A stretch of DNA of 64,000 nucleotides from an uncultured Rhodopila sp. (lineage in GTDB: Bacteria > Pseudomonadota > Alphaproteobacteria > Acetobacterales > Acetobacteraceae). Below are positions 42,873 to 59,251 of this stretch, one piece after another (the first letter of the stretch is position 1; the number at the start of each line of letters is the position of its first letter). Made by a program: the position numbers and the translations under genes. The notes under the pieces were generated by a model, which saw nothing but the letters and a program-made list of their open reading frames with translations, searched no databases and was not told the DNA's origin. The stretch covers positions 62,001 to 126,000 of the forward strand of contig CAINOE010000109.1 in the NCBI GenBank assembly GCA_903851415.1, written 5' to 3'.

Positions 42873-44411
42873 ATGACACAACCGGATCGCAAATCTGAAT
42901 GGTTCAAGCGTCCCGCCGCCTGGCTGATGGCGCTGCTGACCGGCCTCGCCGCCTGTCAGACCCGGCCCCAGATGGCTTACGACGCCGCCAACCCGCGCAC
43001 CGCCGCGGTTCGTAACATCGGCAACTTCAATGAGGCCCTGCGCTGCATGGACGACATGTTCATCGCTCAGGGCAAGCAGGACATCTACATCACCACGGCC
43101 GGCATCCCTGACGCCACCGGGCTGATCGCCACCGGCACCAAGGAGATGTTCATCACCGCCGTCTCCCGCATGTCCGCCAAGAGCAACGCGTTTCACTTCG
43201 TCGATTACGACCCGACCCAGCTCGACGTGCAGGTGCTGTCGGAAATGGTGGGGTTGCATAAGGAATTCGTCGCGCCGAACTACTATGTGCGCGGCGCGAT
43301 CACGCAGCTTGACAGCAACGTCCTACAATCGTCTGCAGGCGGCGGCGTCTCGATCCCCGGCATGGACGCAGCCATCAACGGCTACCAGGTGGTCTCGGTC
43401 GTCTCCATCGACCTGAACGTGGGCAAGCTGGTCACTCGGCAGATCATGCCGGGGATTTCAGCCAGCAACTCGATCGCCGTGGTGCAGTCCGGCAAGGGCG
43501 CCGATGTCGGCGGCTTCATCGGCAAGGCGGGCCTTTCACTCAGTGTGTCGCTCGACAAATCCGAGGGCTTCCACCAGGCGGTGCGCAACCTGATCGAGTT
43601 GTCCACCATCGAAGTGCTTGGCAAATTGACACGTGTCCCCTATTGGCAATGTCTCAGCATCGAATCGACAAATCCGAACTTCAGGAATGAAGCGCGCGGC
43701 TGGTACGACACCATGACCGAGGCCGACAGCAACCGGTTTGTCAGCACGGCGCTCACGCGGGCGGGCTACCTGCAAGGGTCCGCCGCTGCGCCGGGGCCGG
43801 GGTTGTCCGATGCCATCGCCCGCTACCAGGCGGAGAATGATCTGGTGCCGAACGGCCGGGTGGATTTCGATCTGTACTACCGGCTGCTGGCGTCAGATGG
43901 TCGGCCGCCGGCGGCGAAACCGGCGGCTGCCGCGCCCGCGCATGATGGCGGGGTTGCGACACCGGCGCCTGCCGCACCCCCGGGCCTGGTCGTCAGCAGC
44001 CCGCGCGGCCCGAAGCCAATCTACCACGTGGGAGAAACGATGGCGCTGTCCGTGCAGCCGACGCGGGACGCGTATGTCTACTGCTTCTACCAGGATGCCG
44101 CCGGCACGGTCGCTCGCATCTTCCCCAACCGCTTCCAGCCCGACGCGTTCCTGCGCGCCGGCCAGCAGATCGAAATCCCGCCCGCCGGAGAACGATCGTT
44201 TGCCCTCCGTTTCGACAATCCCGGCGGGGCCGAGGCGGTCGCCTGTCTCGGCTCCGACACGGAAATCGGGCTGCGCCTGGCCGATCGGCTGAAGGCGCAG
44301 GACCTTGAACCCTTGCCGGTCAGCGGGTTGGATGACATCGCCGCGCAGTTTCGCGGCATTCCCGGCGCGCAGGTCGCTGACGCCAGGCTGGCCGTGGAGG
44401 TTATCAGATGA
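42873..44411 (+). CDS. CsgG-like / DUF4384 lipoprotein
   Basis: 512 residues from ATG 42873 with GAGGA upstream. A lipobox (LLTGLAAC, Cys ~28) predicts an outer-membrane lipoprotein. Residues ~40-270 resemble CsgG/HfaB secretion-pore proteins (RTAAVRNIGNFNEALRCMDD, ATGTKEMFITAVSRMSAKSN, VSIDLNVGKLVTRQI, GFHQAVRNLIELSTIEVLGK). About 285-345 is like a peptidoglycan-binding unit (LSDAIARYQAENDLVPNGRV). The C-terminus (~380-470) is DUF4384 (YHVGETMALSVQPTRDAYVY, CFYQDAAGTVARIFPN). The stop overlaps the start of the caspase gene (ATGA, 4 bp). It may export or anchor something together with the caspase protein; the partner is unknown. Confidence 0.8.
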   Translation: MTQPDRKSEWFKRPAAWLMALLTGLAACQTRPQMAYDAANPRTAAVRNIGNFNEALRCMDDMFIAQGKQDIYITTAGIPDATGLIATGTKEMFITAVSRMSAKSNAFHFVDYDPTQLDVQVLSEMVGLHKEFVAPNYYVRGAITQLDSNVLQSSAGGGVSIPGMDAAINGYQVVSVVSIDLNVGKLVTRQIMPGISASNSIAVVQSGKGADVGGFIGKAGLSLSVSLDKSEGFHQAVRNLIELSTIEVLGKLTRVPYWQCLSIESTNPNFRNEARGWYDTMTEADSNRFVSTALTRAGYLQGSAAAPGPGLSDAIARYQAENDLVPNGRVDFDLYYRLLASDGRPPAAKPAAAAPAHDGGVATPAPAAPPGLVVSSPRGPKPIYHVGETMALSVQPTRDAYVYCFYQDAAGTVARIFPNRFQPDAFLRAGQQIEIPPAGERSFALRFDNPGGAEAVACLGSDTEIGLRLADRLKAQDLEPLPVSGLDDIAAQFRGIPGAQVADARLAVEVIR

Positions 44412-46867
44412 TCTCCTTATATATACGTGCCGTGTTGTCCCTGTGGCTGCTGACGGCGGCGTTCGCCGCGCGTGCCGATGAGCAGCGGATCGCGCTGGTC
44501 ATCGGCGTCGGCGGCTACCAGAATGCGCCGCACCTCGCCAACCCGGTGAACGATGCCCGCGCCATCGGCGACAGCCTGCGGCGCCTGAAATTCGACGTTA
44601 TGGAACTGTACGATCCGGATTTCCGCGCTCTGAACAGCGGCATCCGGGCGTTTGGCATCCGGGCCGCGAGCGCCGACGTTGCGGTGGTGTACTATGCCGG
44701 CCACGGCGTGCAGGTTGATCGCGAGAACTATCTGATCCCGGCCGACGCCAAACTCGAACGCGAGCGGGACCTTCTCTACGAAGCCATGCCGCTCGATCGT
44801 CTGCTCGGCGAGGTGTCGCAGGCCAGCCGGATTGGCATCATCCTGCTCGACAGTTGCCGCAACAATCCGTTCATCGAGCGGGTCGCGCGGTCGATGACCG
44901 TTGCCGGGCGGGCGGTGGCGACCACGCCGGGGCTGGCGCGGGTGGACAACGTGCCGCGCAACACCATGGTGGTGATGGCCGCGAAGGCGGACCAGATCGC
45001 CGAGGACGGGCAGGAGCACAGCCCATTCGCCAGCGCGCTGCTGGCGCATTTCCAGATCCCCGGCCTGGAGCTCAGCCTGTTCTTCCGCAGCGTGCGCGAC
45101 ACGGTGCTGCGCGCCACCAACAACCGCCAGGAACCCTATGTCTTCAGCTCGCTGGGCGCGGAGCCATTCTACTTCTACCCGCGCCCGCCGAACCGGCCAC
45201 CGGTGATCGCCGCGATCACCCCGCTGGAACTGACGGAAGTCTCCGGCCCGACGGCACTGGGCCTGCCGGAGCCGACGGATCCCGACCAGGACCCGCTGAC
45301 CGCCCGCCTCATCGGCTTGCCGCGGTTTGGCGAGGTGCGGATCGACGGGCACACGGTAGCGCTCAACACGGTAGTGTCGGCCGAGAAGCTCAAAACCGCG
45401 GTATACAAGCCCGACGGCAAGACCATCGGTGCGGCCGGCACGCTGGATATCCTGATCGAGGACGGCCGCGGCGGCAGCGTGACCGCGAGCCTGCCGATAA
45501 CCGTGCGGTCGTCGCATCATCCGCCCGTGCTGTCGGGGCCAGGCCACGTGCAGGTTGCGCAGCAGGTGCTGGGCATCCCGCCGCCGGTGAGCCCGGACGG
45601 CGATCCGCTGACCGTGACCATCACCGCCCTGCCGCGCGGCACCGTCCGCAACGGGGCGGTGATCCTGCATGCCGGGGACACGGTGACGCCGCAGGAACTG
45701 TCGAAGCTGACCTTCTGGCCGGAAGCCGGGTTCTCCGGTTCGGCGGGCAGCCTGCGCTATACCGTCGACAACGGCCATGGCGGTTCGGCCGAGGGTTCGC
45801 TCGATGTCGAGGTCGGCTCGGCGTCCGGCATCAGCGACCCCGGACCGGAACTGGCGATGTGGCAAACCATTCGCGACAGCACCGATCCGGCGGAGTTCGA
45901 TCTGTTCCTGCGGCTGTTCCCGTCGTCGCGCTACGCCGGCGAGGCCAGGCACCGGCATATGGAACTGGCCGATGCCGGCAAGGCGCATGCCGCCGCCAGG
46001 GCCGAGCCACCCGGGGGACAAGCCGCCGCTGCGCCGAAAGCCGAAGCGCCGCCCGCCGGCAATCCGGCGGCGGAGCAAGGGCGGATCGTCACCGCAGCCA
46101 ACGTCCCGCCCATCGGCGCGATCCCGACCCCGCCACGGGGGAATGGCGGAGACGCCAACCGCTTCCAGGATTGCCCGGGGTGTCCCCGGATGGTCCGCAT
46201 CCCCGCGGGCAGCTTCACGATGGGGCTTGGCGCGCGTGATGCGGAGTCGCTTCCGGCCCACCGGGTGGAGGTCCGCGCCTTCGCCATCGGCCTCACCCCG
46301 GTGACCGTGGCGGAGTGGAAAGCCTGCATGGCAGCCAAGGCCTGCAATTTCCTGCCGCGCATGCGCGAGTCGGATGATCGCACGCCGATACACAATCTCA
46401 GTTGGGAGGATGTCGGCCAGTATATGGCGTGGCTGTCGGCCACCAGCGGGCACCCGTATCGTCTGCCGAGCGAGGCGGAATGGGAGTACGCAGCCCGCGG
46501 CGGCACCACGACGCGGTACTGGTGGGGCGATTCGGTCGGGATGGCGCTGGCGAACTGCGCGGATTGCGGCGGGAGCCAGGATCCCTACGCACCGCTGCCG
46601 GTCGATGCACTGTCGGCCAATCCGTTCGGGCTGTACGACATGCTGGGCGGCGTGGCGCAATGGACGGCGGATTGCTGGTTCCCGAACTATCGCGGCGCCC
46701 CGGCCGATGCGGCACCGCGGGAGGGTAAAGCCTGCGACAAGCGGGTGCTGCGCGGCGGTTCGTTCCGGTCGCCTCATGACGAGATCACGGTGATGTATCG
46801 CGGCAATTACGACGCGTCGGTGCGGTATCTCGTCAACGGCTTCCGGGTGGCGCGGGATTTGGAGTAG
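44408..46867 (+). CDS. Secreted caspase-like / FGE-fold (SUMF1) fusion protein
   Basis: 819 residues. A signal peptide is at 1-23 (LWLLTAAFAARADEQ). Residues ~25-260 form a caspase-fold (C14/metacaspase) domain with the catalytic dyad His in VVYYAGHGVQVDRENY (~99) and Cys in IILLDSCRNNPF (~150). Two cadherin/Ig-like segments (~270-480) contain EPTDPDQDPLTARLIG and SPDGDPLTVTITALPRG. A helical and Pro/Ala linker follows, then an FGE/SUMF1-type domain from ~594 (MVRIPAGSFTMG, RLPSEAEWEYAARGG, LYDMLGGVAQWTADCW, RVLRGGSFRSPHDE). The catalytic cysteines of true formylglycine-generating enzymes are missing there, so it is probably a binding module. Coupled to the CsgG-like lipoprotein by a 4-bp overlap. 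Confidence 0.85.
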   Translation: MISLYIRAVLSLWLLTAAFAARADEQRIALVIGVGGYQNAPHLANPVNDARAIGDSLRRLKFDVMELYDPDFRALNSGIRAFGIRAASADVAVVYYAGHGVQVDRENYLIPADAKLERERDLLYEAMPLDRLLGEVSQASRIGIILLDSCRNNPFIERVARSMTVAGRAVATTPGLARVDNVPRNTMVVMAAKADQIAEDGQEHSPFASALLAHFQIPGLELSLFFRSVRDTVLRATNNRQEPYVFSSLGAEPFYFYPRPPNRPPVIAAITPLELTEVSGPTALGLPEPTDPDQDPLTARLIGLPRFGEVRIDGHTVALNTVVSAEKLKTAVYKPDGKTIGAAGTLDILIEDGRGGSVTASLPITVRSSHHPPVLSGPGHVQVAQQVLGIPPPVSPDGDPLTVTITALPRGTVRNGAVILHAGDTVTPQELSKLTFWPEAGFSGSAGSLRYTVDNGHGGSAEGSLDVEVGSASGISDPGPELAMWQTIRDSTDPAEFDLFLRLFPSSRYAGEARHRHMELADAGKAHAAARAEPPGGQAAAAPKAEAPPAGNPAAEQGRIVTAANVPPIGAIPTPPRGNGGDANRFQDCPGCPRMVRIPAGSFTMGLGARDAESLPAHRVEVRAFAIGLTPVTVAEWKACMAAKACNFLPRMRESDDRTPIHNLSWEDVGQYMAWLSATSGHPYRLPSEAEWEYAARGGTTTRYWWGDSVGMALANCADCGGSQDPYAPLPVDALSANPFGLYDMLGGVAQWTADCWFPNYRGAPADAAPREGKACDKRVLRGGSFRSPHDEITVMYRGNYDASVRYLVNGFRVARDLE

Positions 46868-48118: not shown

Positions 48119-49276
48119 ATGCTGCGCATCCCGAACCGCCTTGCCCGGGCCGTGCTGTGTGCAGGTCTGGCTGCGGCGTTGCCCGGCTTCGCATCCGCCC
48201 GGGCGGAGGACGCCGTGCTGCTCGCCTCCACCGTCCCCGGCTACGTCCCCGGCATGGTCGTCTCCCCGGCCGATCGGCTGAGTCTGCCGGAAGGAGCGAG
48301 TGCCACCTTGCTGTTCCAGTCGGGCGAAACGCTGCGCCTGCGCGGCCCGTTCGAGGGCAGTTTGTTTCAGCAGCAAACGGCTGCCGCACAGGGCGGCGCC
48401 GCGGTGCTCGCGGACATGTTCCGCATGCACGGCGTGGACGCGACGGTCATCGGCGGCACACGCTCCACCGGTCCGGCGCGTTCGGCTCCCGCCCTGGATG
48501 ACGTCCAGGTCGATCCGGAACGGTCCGGGACATACTGCGTCGAGCCTTCGACATCGGTGTGGATCACGCGTCCGGCCGGGGATGCCGGCGCTTACGCGCT
48601 GCGGCGCAAAGGCAGCACAAGAAGCCTGGCCTGGCCGGAAGGGGCGCAGCGGATCGAATGGCCCGGAGACGTGCCGATAGAGGACGGCAGCCAGTTCGAG
48701 ATCACGACCGGCAGCGCCGCGCTGGCAACGGTCACGTTCCGCAACATTCCGCCGGCTGCTCCCGACGGACCGGGCCGCATTGCCACCGGGCTTGCACTGG
48801 GGTGCCGCGATCAGTTCGAGTTGGAACTGCGACGGTTCAGCCGAACCGTTGCCACACCGGAGCTTTGGCTCACCACCGGGAGGGGGCGGCGCCCGGTCTA
48901 CCGTCCCGGCGAAGCGATCGAGATGACCGTGATGGCGAGCACGGACGGCTATCTATATTGTGTCGCAACGGACGCGGACGGCGGCGCCAGGCCGATTTTT
49001 CCCGCCGGCGCGGTGGACGGCGCGCAACTGCGCGGTTCGGCGCCGTTGTCGATCCCGGGACGGCGGCAACCGAACGGACTGACCGCCTCGAACGAGACGC
49101 AGCATATCCGGTGCTGGCTCGCCGACAGGGACATCACCCCGGAACTGCCGCATGCACTGCTGGGGGCGCCCGGCGGGCGCTTGCCCGACCAGCTCGCGAC
49201 CGGCCTGGATGGTCTGTTCGGCCGGATCGGCGGGACCCGGATCGAGTCGGACGAGCTGACGGTGAAGCCGGAATGA
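48119..49276 (+). CDS. DUF4384 exported protein
   Basis: 385 residues from ATG 48119 (AAGGAAA upstream), with a signal peptide (LARAVLCAGLAAALPGFASA). Residues ~30-105 resemble a secreted FecR-like beta domain (MVVSPADRLSLPEGASATLL, FQSGETLRLRGPFEG). The C-terminal ~255-340 is a DUF4384 module (PVYRPGEAIEMTVMASTDGY, LYCVATDADGGARPIFPAG) like that in the CsgG-like lipoprotein 4 kb upstream. The shared module suggests both work in the same envelope process. The gene is alone on its strand; the following region contains sRNA copy 1. Confidence 0.75.
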   Translation: MLRIPNRLARAVLCAGLAAALPGFASARAEDAVLLASTVPGYVPGMVVSPADRLSLPEGASATLLFQSGETLRLRGPFEGSLFQQQTAAAQGGAAVLADMFRMHGVDATVIGGTRSTGPARSAPALDDVQVDPERSGTYCVEPSTSVWITRPAGDAGAYALRRKGSTRSLAWPEGAQRIEWPGDVPIEDGSQFEITTGSAALATVTFRNIPPAAPDGPGRIATGLALGCRDQFELELRRFSRTVATPELWLTTGRGRRPVYRPGEAIEMTVMASTDGYLYCVATDADGGARPIFPAGAVDGAQLRGSAPLSIPGRRQPNGLTASNETQHIRCWLADRDITPELPHALLGAPGGRLPDQLATGLDGLFGRIGGTRIESDELTVKPE

Positions 49277-49311: not shown

Positions 49312-49317
49312 TATAAT
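49312..49317 (+). promoter_or_regulatory. Perfect -10 box (TATAAT) upstream of sRNA copy 1
   Basis: TATAAT in the sequence CGGTATAATACC, a rare consensus match in such GC-rich DNA. It would start transcription at about 49324 and read into the hairpin-terminator unit ending at 49446. No good TTGACA is found at the right distance. Confidence 0.5.
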
Positions 49318-49365
49318 ACCTTTGGGTGATTGCATGCTGCACCCGCGAAGATCAGCCTGTCCCGA

Positions 49366-49446
49366 GCAGACCGCGCTTCGGCGCGCTGCTTTCTTGGACG
49401 TTTCCTCCCTAAACTTCGGCGGCGCCTCGGGCGCCGCCGTTTTTTT
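49366..49446 (+). ncRNA. Candidate small RNA, copy 1 (anti-SD-bearing)
   Basis: Structure read directly: hairpin 1 (49366-49389) with stems GCAG/CTGC and CGCGC/GCGCG closed by a TTCG tetraloop and a 2-nt bulge. A 28-nt unpaired segment follows (49390-49417) containing TTTCCTCCCT. Then comes an intrinsic terminator with stem GGCGGCGCC/GGCGCCGCC and seven T. The 28-nt segment is identical in copy 2 at 59161-59188, while both hairpins vary with pairing largely kept. CCTCC can pair with GGAGG ribosome-binding sites, so translational repression of many mRNAs is a reasonable guess. A transcript from the TATAAT at 49312 would be about 123 nt. No coding frame explains the conservation. Confidence 0.72.
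49417..49446 (+). terminator. Intrinsic terminator of sRNA copy 1
   Basis: CGGCGGCGCC-TCG-GGCGCCGCCG followed by T7: a ten-bp GC stem and a T run. One of the two strongest factor-independent terminators in the window. Confidence 0.88.
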
Positions 49447-49699
49447 GGCGCAGGCGGATGGCGCCACCGTTCACGTCGTGGCCCGGCTTGTCAGGGCCAT
49501 GCCGGATTTGCTTAAGGTCACCGGCCGCCATTCGGACCGCGCAGCGGCCCTCGCCCGGCCGCTATCCCGAGACGGCACGGTTCCATGTACGAAATCGACA
49601 TCTATTTTCATTGTTTTGTCATCGCCGCCGATATAACGTCGCTCCGCGACAAGAGCGGCGCAGGAAGCGCCGCTTACGAAACAGCAGAAGGGTCGCTCT

Positions 49700-50230
49700 G
49701 TGCGCCCTCGAAGTCTAAAGCTCCGCGCACCGCGGAGCTCGCGTGAATGGGCCCGCTACCACGAAATCCGTAAGCGCTGCCTGTTCGAAAAGTACAATGG
49801 CAAGGGTACGCCGCATTATTTCGAATATGACCCCTGGCATCCGGACGAAGGCAACCCGGCCAACCATCCGTTGGTCTTTCTCGCCAACGGACGGGTCATC
49901 GGCACCATCCGGATCGATATCAAACCCGACGGCCGTGCCGTGTTTCGCCTCGTCGCCATCGACGACGCGCTGCAAGGGCGCGGGCTCGGCTCGGTCATGC
50001 TCGCCAGGGCGGAAGAGTTCGCCCGGGAGCACGGCGCCGAGACGATTTGTCTGAACGCCGTCAGCGACGCCTACCGCTTCTACGTCCGCCACGGATACGA
50101 ACCGGTGCGGTGGGCGGGCTGCACCGGGAATCCCACCGAGATCCCGGTGGTGAAGCACTTGGCCGAACCGGCGATGCAACCCATCGCCCTCCCGGTTGCC
50201 GTCCAGGCCGCCATGCAACTCGTTGCCTGA
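49700..50230 (+). CDS. GNAT-family N-acetyltransferase
   Basis: 176 residues from GTG 49700 with AGAAGG upstream. GCN5-related acetyltransferase fold: strand GRVIGTIRIDIKPDGRAVFR, the acetyl-CoA pyrophosphate loop in LQGRGLGSVMLARAEEFARE (Q/RxxGxG/A) and the family's NAVSDAYRFYVRHGYEPV. The substrate amine is unknown. About 250 bp of unassigned sequence separates it from sRNA copy 1, with a REP-like fragment (CGTGGCCCGGCTTGTCAGGG) near 49477. Confidence 0.88.
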   Translation: MRPRSLKLRAPRSSREWARYHEIRKRCLFEKYNGKGTPHYFEYDPWHPDEGNPANHPLVFLANGRVIGTIRIDIKPDGRAVFRLVAIDDALQGRGLGSVMLARAEEFAREHGAETICLNAVSDAYRFYVRHGYEPVRWAGCTGNPTEIPVVKHLAEPAMQPIALPVAVQAAMQLVA

Positions 50231-56134: not shown

Positions 56135-57163
56135 ATGAAAGACACCATTTTGATCCTCGCGCTGGCCGGATTCCTGTCGCCCTGTGTCGCGATGGCTCAG
56201 GCCGCGGAGACCGTCCAGGCAGGCGCAGGGGTTGGGACAGAGAACAGCCGCGCGGAACCCCATCCGGATAACGCGGTGCCGGCGGACCAAGGGGCGGAGG
56301 CGCTGCTGAACCTGGTGCTGCGGCAGGTCGTCGCGGGTCAGACAATGGCGCCCGAGGGAGACAATGCGATTTTCACCTGGAAGCGATTGCTGAAGGTGAT
56401 CGTTCCGCGCTCACCGGCGACCGTCAAGGCGTTGAGAGACTTCGTCGCGGAGTCCCGGCGCCACGCCGCCGACGAGCAGGCGGCGGGGCGAACTGTCACT
56501 GCGCGCGAGCTCTCGATTTTCGCCGATGAGGCGTCCGACATGCTTAAGGGCGAAGGGCCGGAGCCGCCGGCCGCCGCTTCGGCCGATAAGGCTGCCGCTC
56601 CGCCGGCGGAGGTCCGGCGAAGCGACACTGCCCCGGAACCGCAGATCCAGGCGAACGCACGCGGGAGCGGCGATGCGGCGGACGCGGACTCCCGGAGAAA
56701 CGAGCCCCCACCGGCGGCGAAGTCGCGGACGCTGCCCGCCGAACCCAATGGCAACGATGCCCCCGCGGAAATGGCAAGCCGCAACGCGGAATCGGTCCCT
56801 GAACCTTCCCCCGCTGCGGCATCTCCGCCGGCAGCCGTGCCTGCGCGTCCTGCCACTCAGCAACCCGCGCCGGACCAGGCGGCGGCAACCGCGGCGTCAC
56901 TCAGTCGTGGCGATGCGATGTTGGCGATGAGGAATATCACCGCGGCCCGGTCGTTTTACGAGTACGCCGCCAACGCAGGCAATGCGAGGGCGGCGGCGGC
57001 ACTGGCCGAAACCTATGATCCGGTCTTTCTCAACCGATTGGGTGTGATCGGCCTCAAACCTGATCCTGCGGCAGCGGCGGCATGGTACCGCAAGGCCGCG
57101 GCGCTGGGCGACCGAAGTGCGGTGGCTCGCCTGGAAACGCTCAGATCAGACGTGGCGAAATAG
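56135..57163 (+). CDS. Sel1-like repeat exported protein
   Basis: 342 residues from ATG 56135 with GGGAGAGGG just upstream. Signal peptide (LILALAGFLSPCVAMAQ). A helical region of ~45-145 precedes a long disordered Pro/Ala/Glu stretch (~145-255). Two Sel1-type helical repeats end the protein (SFYEYAANAGNARAAAALAE, AAAWYRKAAALGDRSAVARL). Such proteins scaffold envelope complexes. It follows the DsrE gene by 108 bp, in the same direction. Specific function unknown. Confidence 0.78.
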   Translation: MKDTILILALAGFLSPCVAMAQAAETVQAGAGVGTENSRAEPHPDNAVPADQGAEALLNLVLRQVVAGQTMAPEGDNAIFTWKRLLKVIVPRSPATVKALRDFVAESRRHAADEQAAGRTVTARELSIFADEASDMLKGEGPEPPAAASADKAAAPPAEVRRSDTAPEPQIQANARGSGDAADADSRRNEPPPAAKSRTLPAEPNGNDAPAEMASRNAESVPEPSPAAASPPAAVPARPATQQPAPDQAAATAASLSRGDAMLAMRNITAARSFYEYAANAGNARAAAALAETYDPVFLNRLGVIGLKPDPAAAAAWYRKAAALGDRSAVARLETLRSDVAK

Positions 57164-57218
57164 CCGGAGGGTTGACGCAGCCCCGGCGGGGCCGCGGCAC
57201 ACGAGCGTCGGCGCCCCC

Positions 57219-58865: not shown

Positions 58866-59136
58866 CGCGGCCTTTCCGGCGGCCAAAGCACTGCCGTTGC
58901 AGAATTTGAGCTGTCGCATGGCATCTATTATGGCCGGACCTTTCACGCCGCATAGCCCGCTATGCGAACTTCTCAGAGGGCCGCCTGTGCAATTCTCAGC
59001 TAGCCGCACGCGCGGGAGCCGGTGACAGGTCTGGCTGTGGCTGATTCGCTACAGCCACCCTGTTAGCGATAACAAAATGCTGCGTCGCAGCAAAATCTGC
59101 TTGCAAGCGGCGGCGGCGTTGGCCATCTTGTCAATC

Positions 59137-59219
59137 GCAGACCGCGCTCAGGCGCACTGCTTTCTTGGACGTTTCCTCCCTAAACTTCGGCGGTGCCTCA
59201 GGGCACCGCCGTTTTTTTT
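59137..59219 (+). ncRNA. Candidate small RNA, copy 2 (anti-SD-bearing)
   Basis: The same architecture as 49366-49446: hairpin 1 (59137-59160) with GCAG/CTGC and GCGC/GCGC stems, the identical 28-nt linker (59161-59188) carrying TTTCCTCCCT, and a terminator stem GGCGGTGCC/GGCACCGCC with eight T. Compared with copy 1, a C-G pair in the terminator stem has become T-A on both sides, a compensating change. The loop of hairpin 1 and its last base pair also differ. No obvious TATAAT was found upstream. A remnant of an MBL-fold gene follows. Confidence 0.72.
59188..59219 (+). terminator. Intrinsic terminator of sRNA copy 2
   Basis: CGGCGGTGCC-TCAG-GGCACCGCCG followed by T8: a ten-bp stem (with its outer C-G pair) and a strong T run. 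Confidence 0.88.
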
Positions 59220-59251
59220 CCGGGCGCCGCGAAACAATCCGGGAGTGTCCG

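Follow-up and report, generated by a model that had tools for sequence, protein, structure and literature searches.

What RNA does the small unit at positions 49366-49446 of the window (the whole 64,000-nucleotide stretch analysed here) encode, and what would distinguish it from its paralogs? The initial annotation had described a hairpin, linker and terminator in an intergenic region, sharing an anti-Shine-Dalgarno core with a second copy, and had left the pair without a named family. The unit is present, with a linker of 27 bases instead of 28, and it is indeed intergenic, flanked by one ORF that ends at 49276 (DUF4384) and another that starts at 49700. A family can now be assigned: in an Rfam scan, which the annotation had suggested, both this copy (copy 1; match at 49381-49454, + strand, 59.7 bits) and the second one (copy 2; 59152-59226, + strand, 56.8 bits) pass the gathering cut-off of 41 bits for RF00519, described by Rfam as suhB, 'Makes More Granules Regulator RNA', αr8.

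Identity and anatomy of the αr8 copies

The probable mature RNA of copy 1 (49366-49446, + strand) has a characteristic three-part form: a 5' hairpin (49366-49389), recognized by folding and by covariation in the alignment, a linker (49390-49416) holding TTTCCTCCCT at 49401-49410, and an intrinsic terminator (49417-49446), whose stem at 49417-49439 has 10 G-C pairs and is followed by a run of 7 T at 49440-49446. A rho-independent 3' terminator of this kind is a feature of αr8. The 10-mer at 49401-49410, UUUCCUCCCU, predicted to be the anti-Shine-Dalgarno pairing core, is identical to the 10-mer that constitutes the αr8 signature (PMC12559287, partial text). Copy 2 (59137-59219, + strand) is built likewise, with its hairpin at 59137-59160, 10-mer at 59172-59181 and terminator at 59188-59219. 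The shared linker reported earlier is real: the window contains two TTTCCTCCCT where 0.03 would be expected, a count reached by none of 100 shuffles, and the stretch identical between the two copies runs from CTGCTTTC through CTTCGGCGG. Both RNAs fold more stably than their shuffled versions (z -3.66 for copy 1 and -4.54 for copy 2; for either RNA, none of 200 shuffles was as stable). The αr8 form has the 10-mer single-stranded, after a weak hairpin; in the minimum-energy folds, that of copy 1 is mostly unpaired, with three of its bases in a weak predicted 3-bp hairpin.

Copy 1 is best read as an ordinary anti-Shine-Dalgarno αr8 sRNA of an already known family and as one of a sibling set. The fuller reading, by which it is a trans-acting sRNA of about 80 nt of the αr8 (RF00519 suhB/MmgR) family whose siblings differ by promoter, we consider very likely. 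A CcsR/Cuckoo- or SorY-type CCUCC RNA in place of αr8 deserves hardly any credence: the CCUCC core is common to them and SorY (RF02651) gives a weak match, but this match reaches 28.1 bits against a cut-off of 111, that to CcsR1 (RF02791) is on the other strand and also falls short (22.5 against a cut-off of 65.3 bits), and RF00519 passes its own; SorY and CcsR1 were accordingly rejected as identities. NfeR1 (αr14) is similarly a multi-copy alphaproteobacterial RNA with an anti-Shine-Dalgarno motif and variable stems, but it forms three hairpins, each of which presents the motif in its loop (PMC7143759, partial text); αr14 identity needs this arrangement and was rejected for copy 1, which has a single core, in the linker. 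It is also very improbable that copy 1 is only the transcription terminator of the upstream DUF4384 gene: that gene lies on the same strand, its ORF ends at 49276 and the terminator at 49417-49446 is strong, but a terminator alone would have no need of the hairpin and linker, which are conserved across many loci.

Stem covariation across copies

The initial annotation had further held that the stems of copies 1 and 2 vary compatibly with pairing. This is true of the terminator, where C-G is replaced by U-A, but not of the 5' hairpin, where C-G becomes C-A and the inner stem loses its outermost pair; because of this broken pair, the two copies alone are thinner evidence than had been stated. 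Compatible variation does emerge at the scale of the family. The structure alignment comprises 43 of 62 distinct rows; the 19 left out are L166:1-85, which is of the same type and at a contig end, and rows with another 5' arm or from outside the genus, the 19 including the own genome's copy on contig 109 at 233951. Over these 43 copies, 98.5% of cells are paired in the structure described above and 6 of 17 pairs show double-sided changes, five of them in the terminator stem and one in the 5' hairpin. On each of five measures, all 500 shuffles fall short of what was observed, and the paired share drops to 62.3% or less once the pairing partners are slid. One 5' hairpin pair is broken in 10 of the 43 rows, and the linker is nearly invariant. 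These data support the αr8 copies being an RNA under selection and, together with the seven matches in the genome detailed below, bear out a family of paralogous RNA genes that share an anti-Shine-Dalgarno core. What the initial annotation observed is confirmed, and its interpretation is partly supported.

Copy number and phyletic distribution

The assembly (7.09 Mb, 215 contigs) contains seven RF00519 matches. Six exceed the cut-off: three lie on contig 109 (two inside the window), two on contig 84, 169 bases apart, and one on contig 152. The seventh, on contig 158, is under the cut-off. Copy 1 has the best family score of all copies in the genome. Estimated contamination is 6.15%, hence some copies on other contigs may belong to another organism. 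By its DapF, the host is probably a Rhodopila-like member of Acetobacteraceae: the protein encoded in the window shares 89% identity with its counterparts in two uncultured Rhodopila genomes and 82% with the Rhodopila globiformis protein. A search of relatives, which the annotation had also proposed, gave matches at E <= 0.001 in 34 of 40 genomes (above the cut-off in 32; at most 12 matches in one genome), with the linker almost invariant and pairing kept across the aligned copies. In a survey of the class, 107 of 190 genomes had matches, 86 of them over the cut-off, and two same-family genomes of another genus had none. Two of 14 control genomes also gave a match, one over the cut-off; as Thermus composti is among them, single under-cut-off matches may be chance.

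Six αr8 copies in three genomes (contig 152 of the own genome; C34, C14 and C27 of G006; C58 and C4 of G008) have a long, closely similar upstream region, and look as if recent duplication or transfer had dispersed gene and promoter together.

The weak match on contig 158 (41869-41944; L137:4370-4445) is an αr8-like RNA of 32.9 bits, under the cut-off, in which the core GUGACGUUUCCCCCCCAAACUU replaces CCUCCC. This core was found in 12 of the 22 weak-match loci examined, namely L137 and 11 loci of relatives, and nine of the 12 are divergent, beside a malate synthase G gene. Among 289 sampled genomes of the class GUGACGUUUCCCCCCCAAACUU occurs in the own genome only, thus it may be restricted to the Rhodopila-like genus; a literature search on part of this core returned no match. 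Another recurring weak match, CAGACGTGAAGCCTCCCTGTATACTTGCCCCCGG, has a terminator-like end and is found in three genomes of the genus (L277, L290, L291), where it is perhaps a separate CCUCCCUG RNA.

A likely PhaR-type operator and the putative common promoter

The PhaR site is given as CTGCNNNGCAG in Rhodobacter sphaeroides and as YGCRNYGCR in Sinorhizobium meliloti, where PhaR binds the mmgR promoter in EMSA (PMC12542648, partial text). Between 100 and 20 bases before the match, a TGCRNYGCA palindrome, which fits this site, is present in 41 of 61 copies of the genus (shuffle mean 2.8, maximum 7), a count that overstates the number of events as these copies are related and hence non-independent. 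Control windows gave 4 of 59 and 5 of 60. The 61 copies are 68 rows minus seven (four from beyond the genus, two that scored below the cut-off and one with a short upstream region), and even a loose palindrome is absent in 15 of them. Outside the genus, the strict palindrome lies between 170 and 40 bases upstream of the core in 20 of 34 loci, against none of the 34 in an equal-length window 300 bases further up; these loci, 27 from the class survey and seven from the relatives survey, are among the matches listed and mostly the best-scoring ones. By our own count, 16 of the 20 palindromes sit 80 to 50 bases upstream, i.e. at promoter distance.

A second element, CTTGC, lies at one fixed distance from the RNA in 35 of the 61 genus copies. 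Aligned on it, most of the 35 show the same succession: the palindrome comes first, CTTGCA follows, and after a spacer of 17 bases come a CCATTC-like hexamer and the hairpin's GCAG. CTTGC as a -35 element would put the RNA start at the 5' hairpin GCAG, about 49366 in copy 1. In copy 2, the palindrome TGCTGCGTCGCAGCA (59078-59092, strandless) fits the PhaR site CTGCNNNGCAG (PMC12542648, partial text), and the alignment of the 35 copies points to a putative promoter at 59100-59128 (+ strand; CTTGCA, 17 bases, CCATCT), in which no sigma-70 consensus match was found. The strict 9-mer palindrome occurs at nine places in the window; the extended palindrome of PhaR type was found once in the 64 kb, at copy 2. 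The own genome encodes one PHB_acc_N (PhaR-type) protein and has nine Phasin_2 matches. Six of the nine phasin loci were examined: three have PhaR-type sites upstream of the phasin domain, and no such site was found at the other three or at the phaR locus.

Many of the sibling copies are thus likely to carry a PhaR-type operator upstream, and copy 1 lacks one. The link to PhaR is already published for S. meliloti; its extension to the Rhodopila lineage and to other families was computed here and may have been reported already, although among the titles listed in a literature search on mmgR with PhaR or polyhydroxybutyrate none concerned the operator outside Sinorhizobium.

The upstream region and locus of copy 1

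No PhaR-type palindrome was found 100 to 20 bases upstream of the copy 1 match. The region at 49318-49365 (+ strand) belongs to a second upstream type (ACCTTTGGG...TTGCATGCTGCACCCGCGAAG) without the palindrome: from about 49318 it aligns with eight other copies from three genomes (the own genome and the two nearest relatives, G006 and G008), two of the eight being under the family cut-off. All nine have two blocks in common, ACCTTT(T/G)GG and one resembling TGCTGCACCTGCGAA, and a tenth row (G006 C44) has the latter only. The perfect TATAAT behind which the initial annotation had placed the RNA is present at 49312-49317 (+ strand), but it sits at the edge of the shared upstream part and is unconserved among copies that share the rest of the region, and no -35 partner was found for it. 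No consensus promoter was found for copy 1, and its putative -35 and -10 elements (ATTGCA, TCAGCC) are weak. The upstream type common to nine copies argues against its promoter being a decayed form of the common one.

Upstream of dapF, the neighbourhood of copy 1 comprises genes for a caspase/FGE-sulfatase protein, two DUF4399 proteins, a DUF4384 protein and an acetyltransferase. A single protein encoded at 44408-46867 combines a caspase domain, an FGE-sulfatase domain and Ig-like repeats, near the two DUF4399 genes and the DUF4384 gene. This stretch has no counterpart beside dapF in the two nearest relatives, which align with the dapF side of the window from 50870 on only. The exact 10-mer is present in none of 80 DapF-neighbour loci, which vary in length, and an Rfam scan of nine of the 80 gave no RF00519. 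For copy 2, synteny is kept in G006 and G008. An apparent synteny break lies at 57112-57217: the dapF neighbourhood L038 extends up to 57112, and other contigs of G006 and G008 align from 57217.

As its stretch lacks a counterpart beside dapF in the relatives, copy 1 could be recent or idle; on sequence grounds, it may be differently controlled, or idle. We regard as unlikely the stronger proposition that it is an inactive duplicate, an αr8 gene body moved into a lineage-specific stretch without a working promoter. The missing counterpart and the missing consensus promoter would fit such a duplicate, as would two of the upstream-similar copies in those relatives (L272, L284), which have 36.1 and 33.9 bits, under the cut-off, and broken T-runs; against it, copy 1 has the genome's best family score, its core and terminator are intact, and its upstream region is similar in eight other copies. 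An αr8 sRNA with the second, shared type of upstream region remains our preferred reading.

Predicted action and targets

In the proposed mechanism, the UUUCCUCCCU core would pair, with Hfq, with the Shine-Dalgarno region of many mRNAs and so block translation; copy 1 thus probably silences numerous messages at the sites where ribosomes bind. The genome contains an hfq gene. A precedent is presented by Caulobacter SisA, which acts via the 10-mer to repress a target 5' UTR reporter in cells with Caulobacter Hfq (PMC12559287, partial text). The siblings would be distinguished by their promoters: in about two thirds of the genus copies, including copy 2, a PhaR-type operator just upstream of the -35 would make transcription follow PHB status, and copy 1, with the second upstream type lacking the operator, would answer another signal. 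MmgR itself keeps PHB accumulation and phasin levels in check in S. meliloti (PMC8401924, partial text).

The candidate target motif GGGAGGAAA, placed 2-12 bases before an ATG, has nine matches at eight sites against one for the reversed pattern, an excess that Shine-Dalgarno sequences alone would favour. An ORF of at least 50 aa follows at six of the eight sites, and pairing was computed for five of the six, the sixth, inside an ABC-transporter-like frame, being left out. Pairing energies are -17.4 to -23.4 kcal/mol at these five against -7.1 to -15.5 kcal/mol at ten putative ORF starts of the window; the five were chosen for the motif, and are therefore no evidence of regulation. Judging from translations, they precede a CaiB-like CoA transferase, two SDR enzymes, an enolase-family enzyme and one unnamed protein. 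Eight candidate phasin ATGs, from five of the six loci, gave -8.8 to -14.2 kcal/mol, no better than the window genes, thus leaving direct pairing at phasin starts unsupported.

In Caulobacter, the sponge RNA CrfA binds the αr8 10-mer, helped by Hfq (PMC12559287, partial text). A search of the own genome with a 21-base complement of the core, allowing at most three mismatches, returned six matches, all of them the family's own copies. This search needs at least 18 of 21 complementary bases, and a CrfA-like RNA with shorter pairing would escape it.

Comparison with known αr8 systems

MmgR of S. meliloti has the Rfam family, the 10-mer and the hairpin-core-terminator form in common with copies 1 and 2. 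The mmgR promoter has a PhaR (AniA) site that binds PhaR (PMC12542648, partial text), and the same is predicted for copy 2, whereas copy 1 is without a PhaR-type site. The position also differs: the mmgR motif is within the -35/-10 region (PMC8401924, partial text), and here the palindrome is upstream of the -35. MmgR is described as the sole αr8 RNA of S. meliloti (PMC12559287, partial text), against six over the cut-off in the own genome; a table in PMC7143759 (partial text) gives 3 for S. meliloti αr8 in what appears to be a copy-number column. Closer in this respect is Caulobacter crescentus, whose four αr8 siblings, SisA-D, are paralogs that occupy separate loci and share the 10-mer but not the promoters (PMC12559287, partial text); they differ in that the sponge search described above, which required 18 or more complementary bases out of 21, detected nothing here beyond the copies themselves. 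Adjacency to an N-formylglutamate amidohydrolase (FGase) gene, usual in αr8 species, is not required, and is absent for all seven own copies: the FGase genes are on contigs 95 and 17, and the copies on contigs 109, 84, 152 and 158.

Implications

The best reading of the upstream sequences is that only some of the sibling set look PHB-responsive. A wider proposal is more tentative, and we think it somewhat more apt to fail than to hold: the PhaR operator would be old and class-wide in αr8 genes, with αr8 as the post-transcriptional arm of the PHB regulator, and in the Rhodopila-like lineage the family would have expanded and divided into two groups, one controlled by PhaR (copy 2), the other with a different shared promoter block of ACCTTTTGG type (copy 1). 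If true, one anti-Shine-Dalgarno regulon would be driven by two separate signals. The previously unassigned RNA is now placed in the αr8 family, and an identical core under different promoters offers a testable reason why many near-identical anti-Shine-Dalgarno sRNAs are kept. Whether αr8 siblings act redundantly, and whether all of them serve carbon metabolism, are questions raised in PMC12559287 (partial text), and the split between copies with and without the operator in one genome makes them directly testable.
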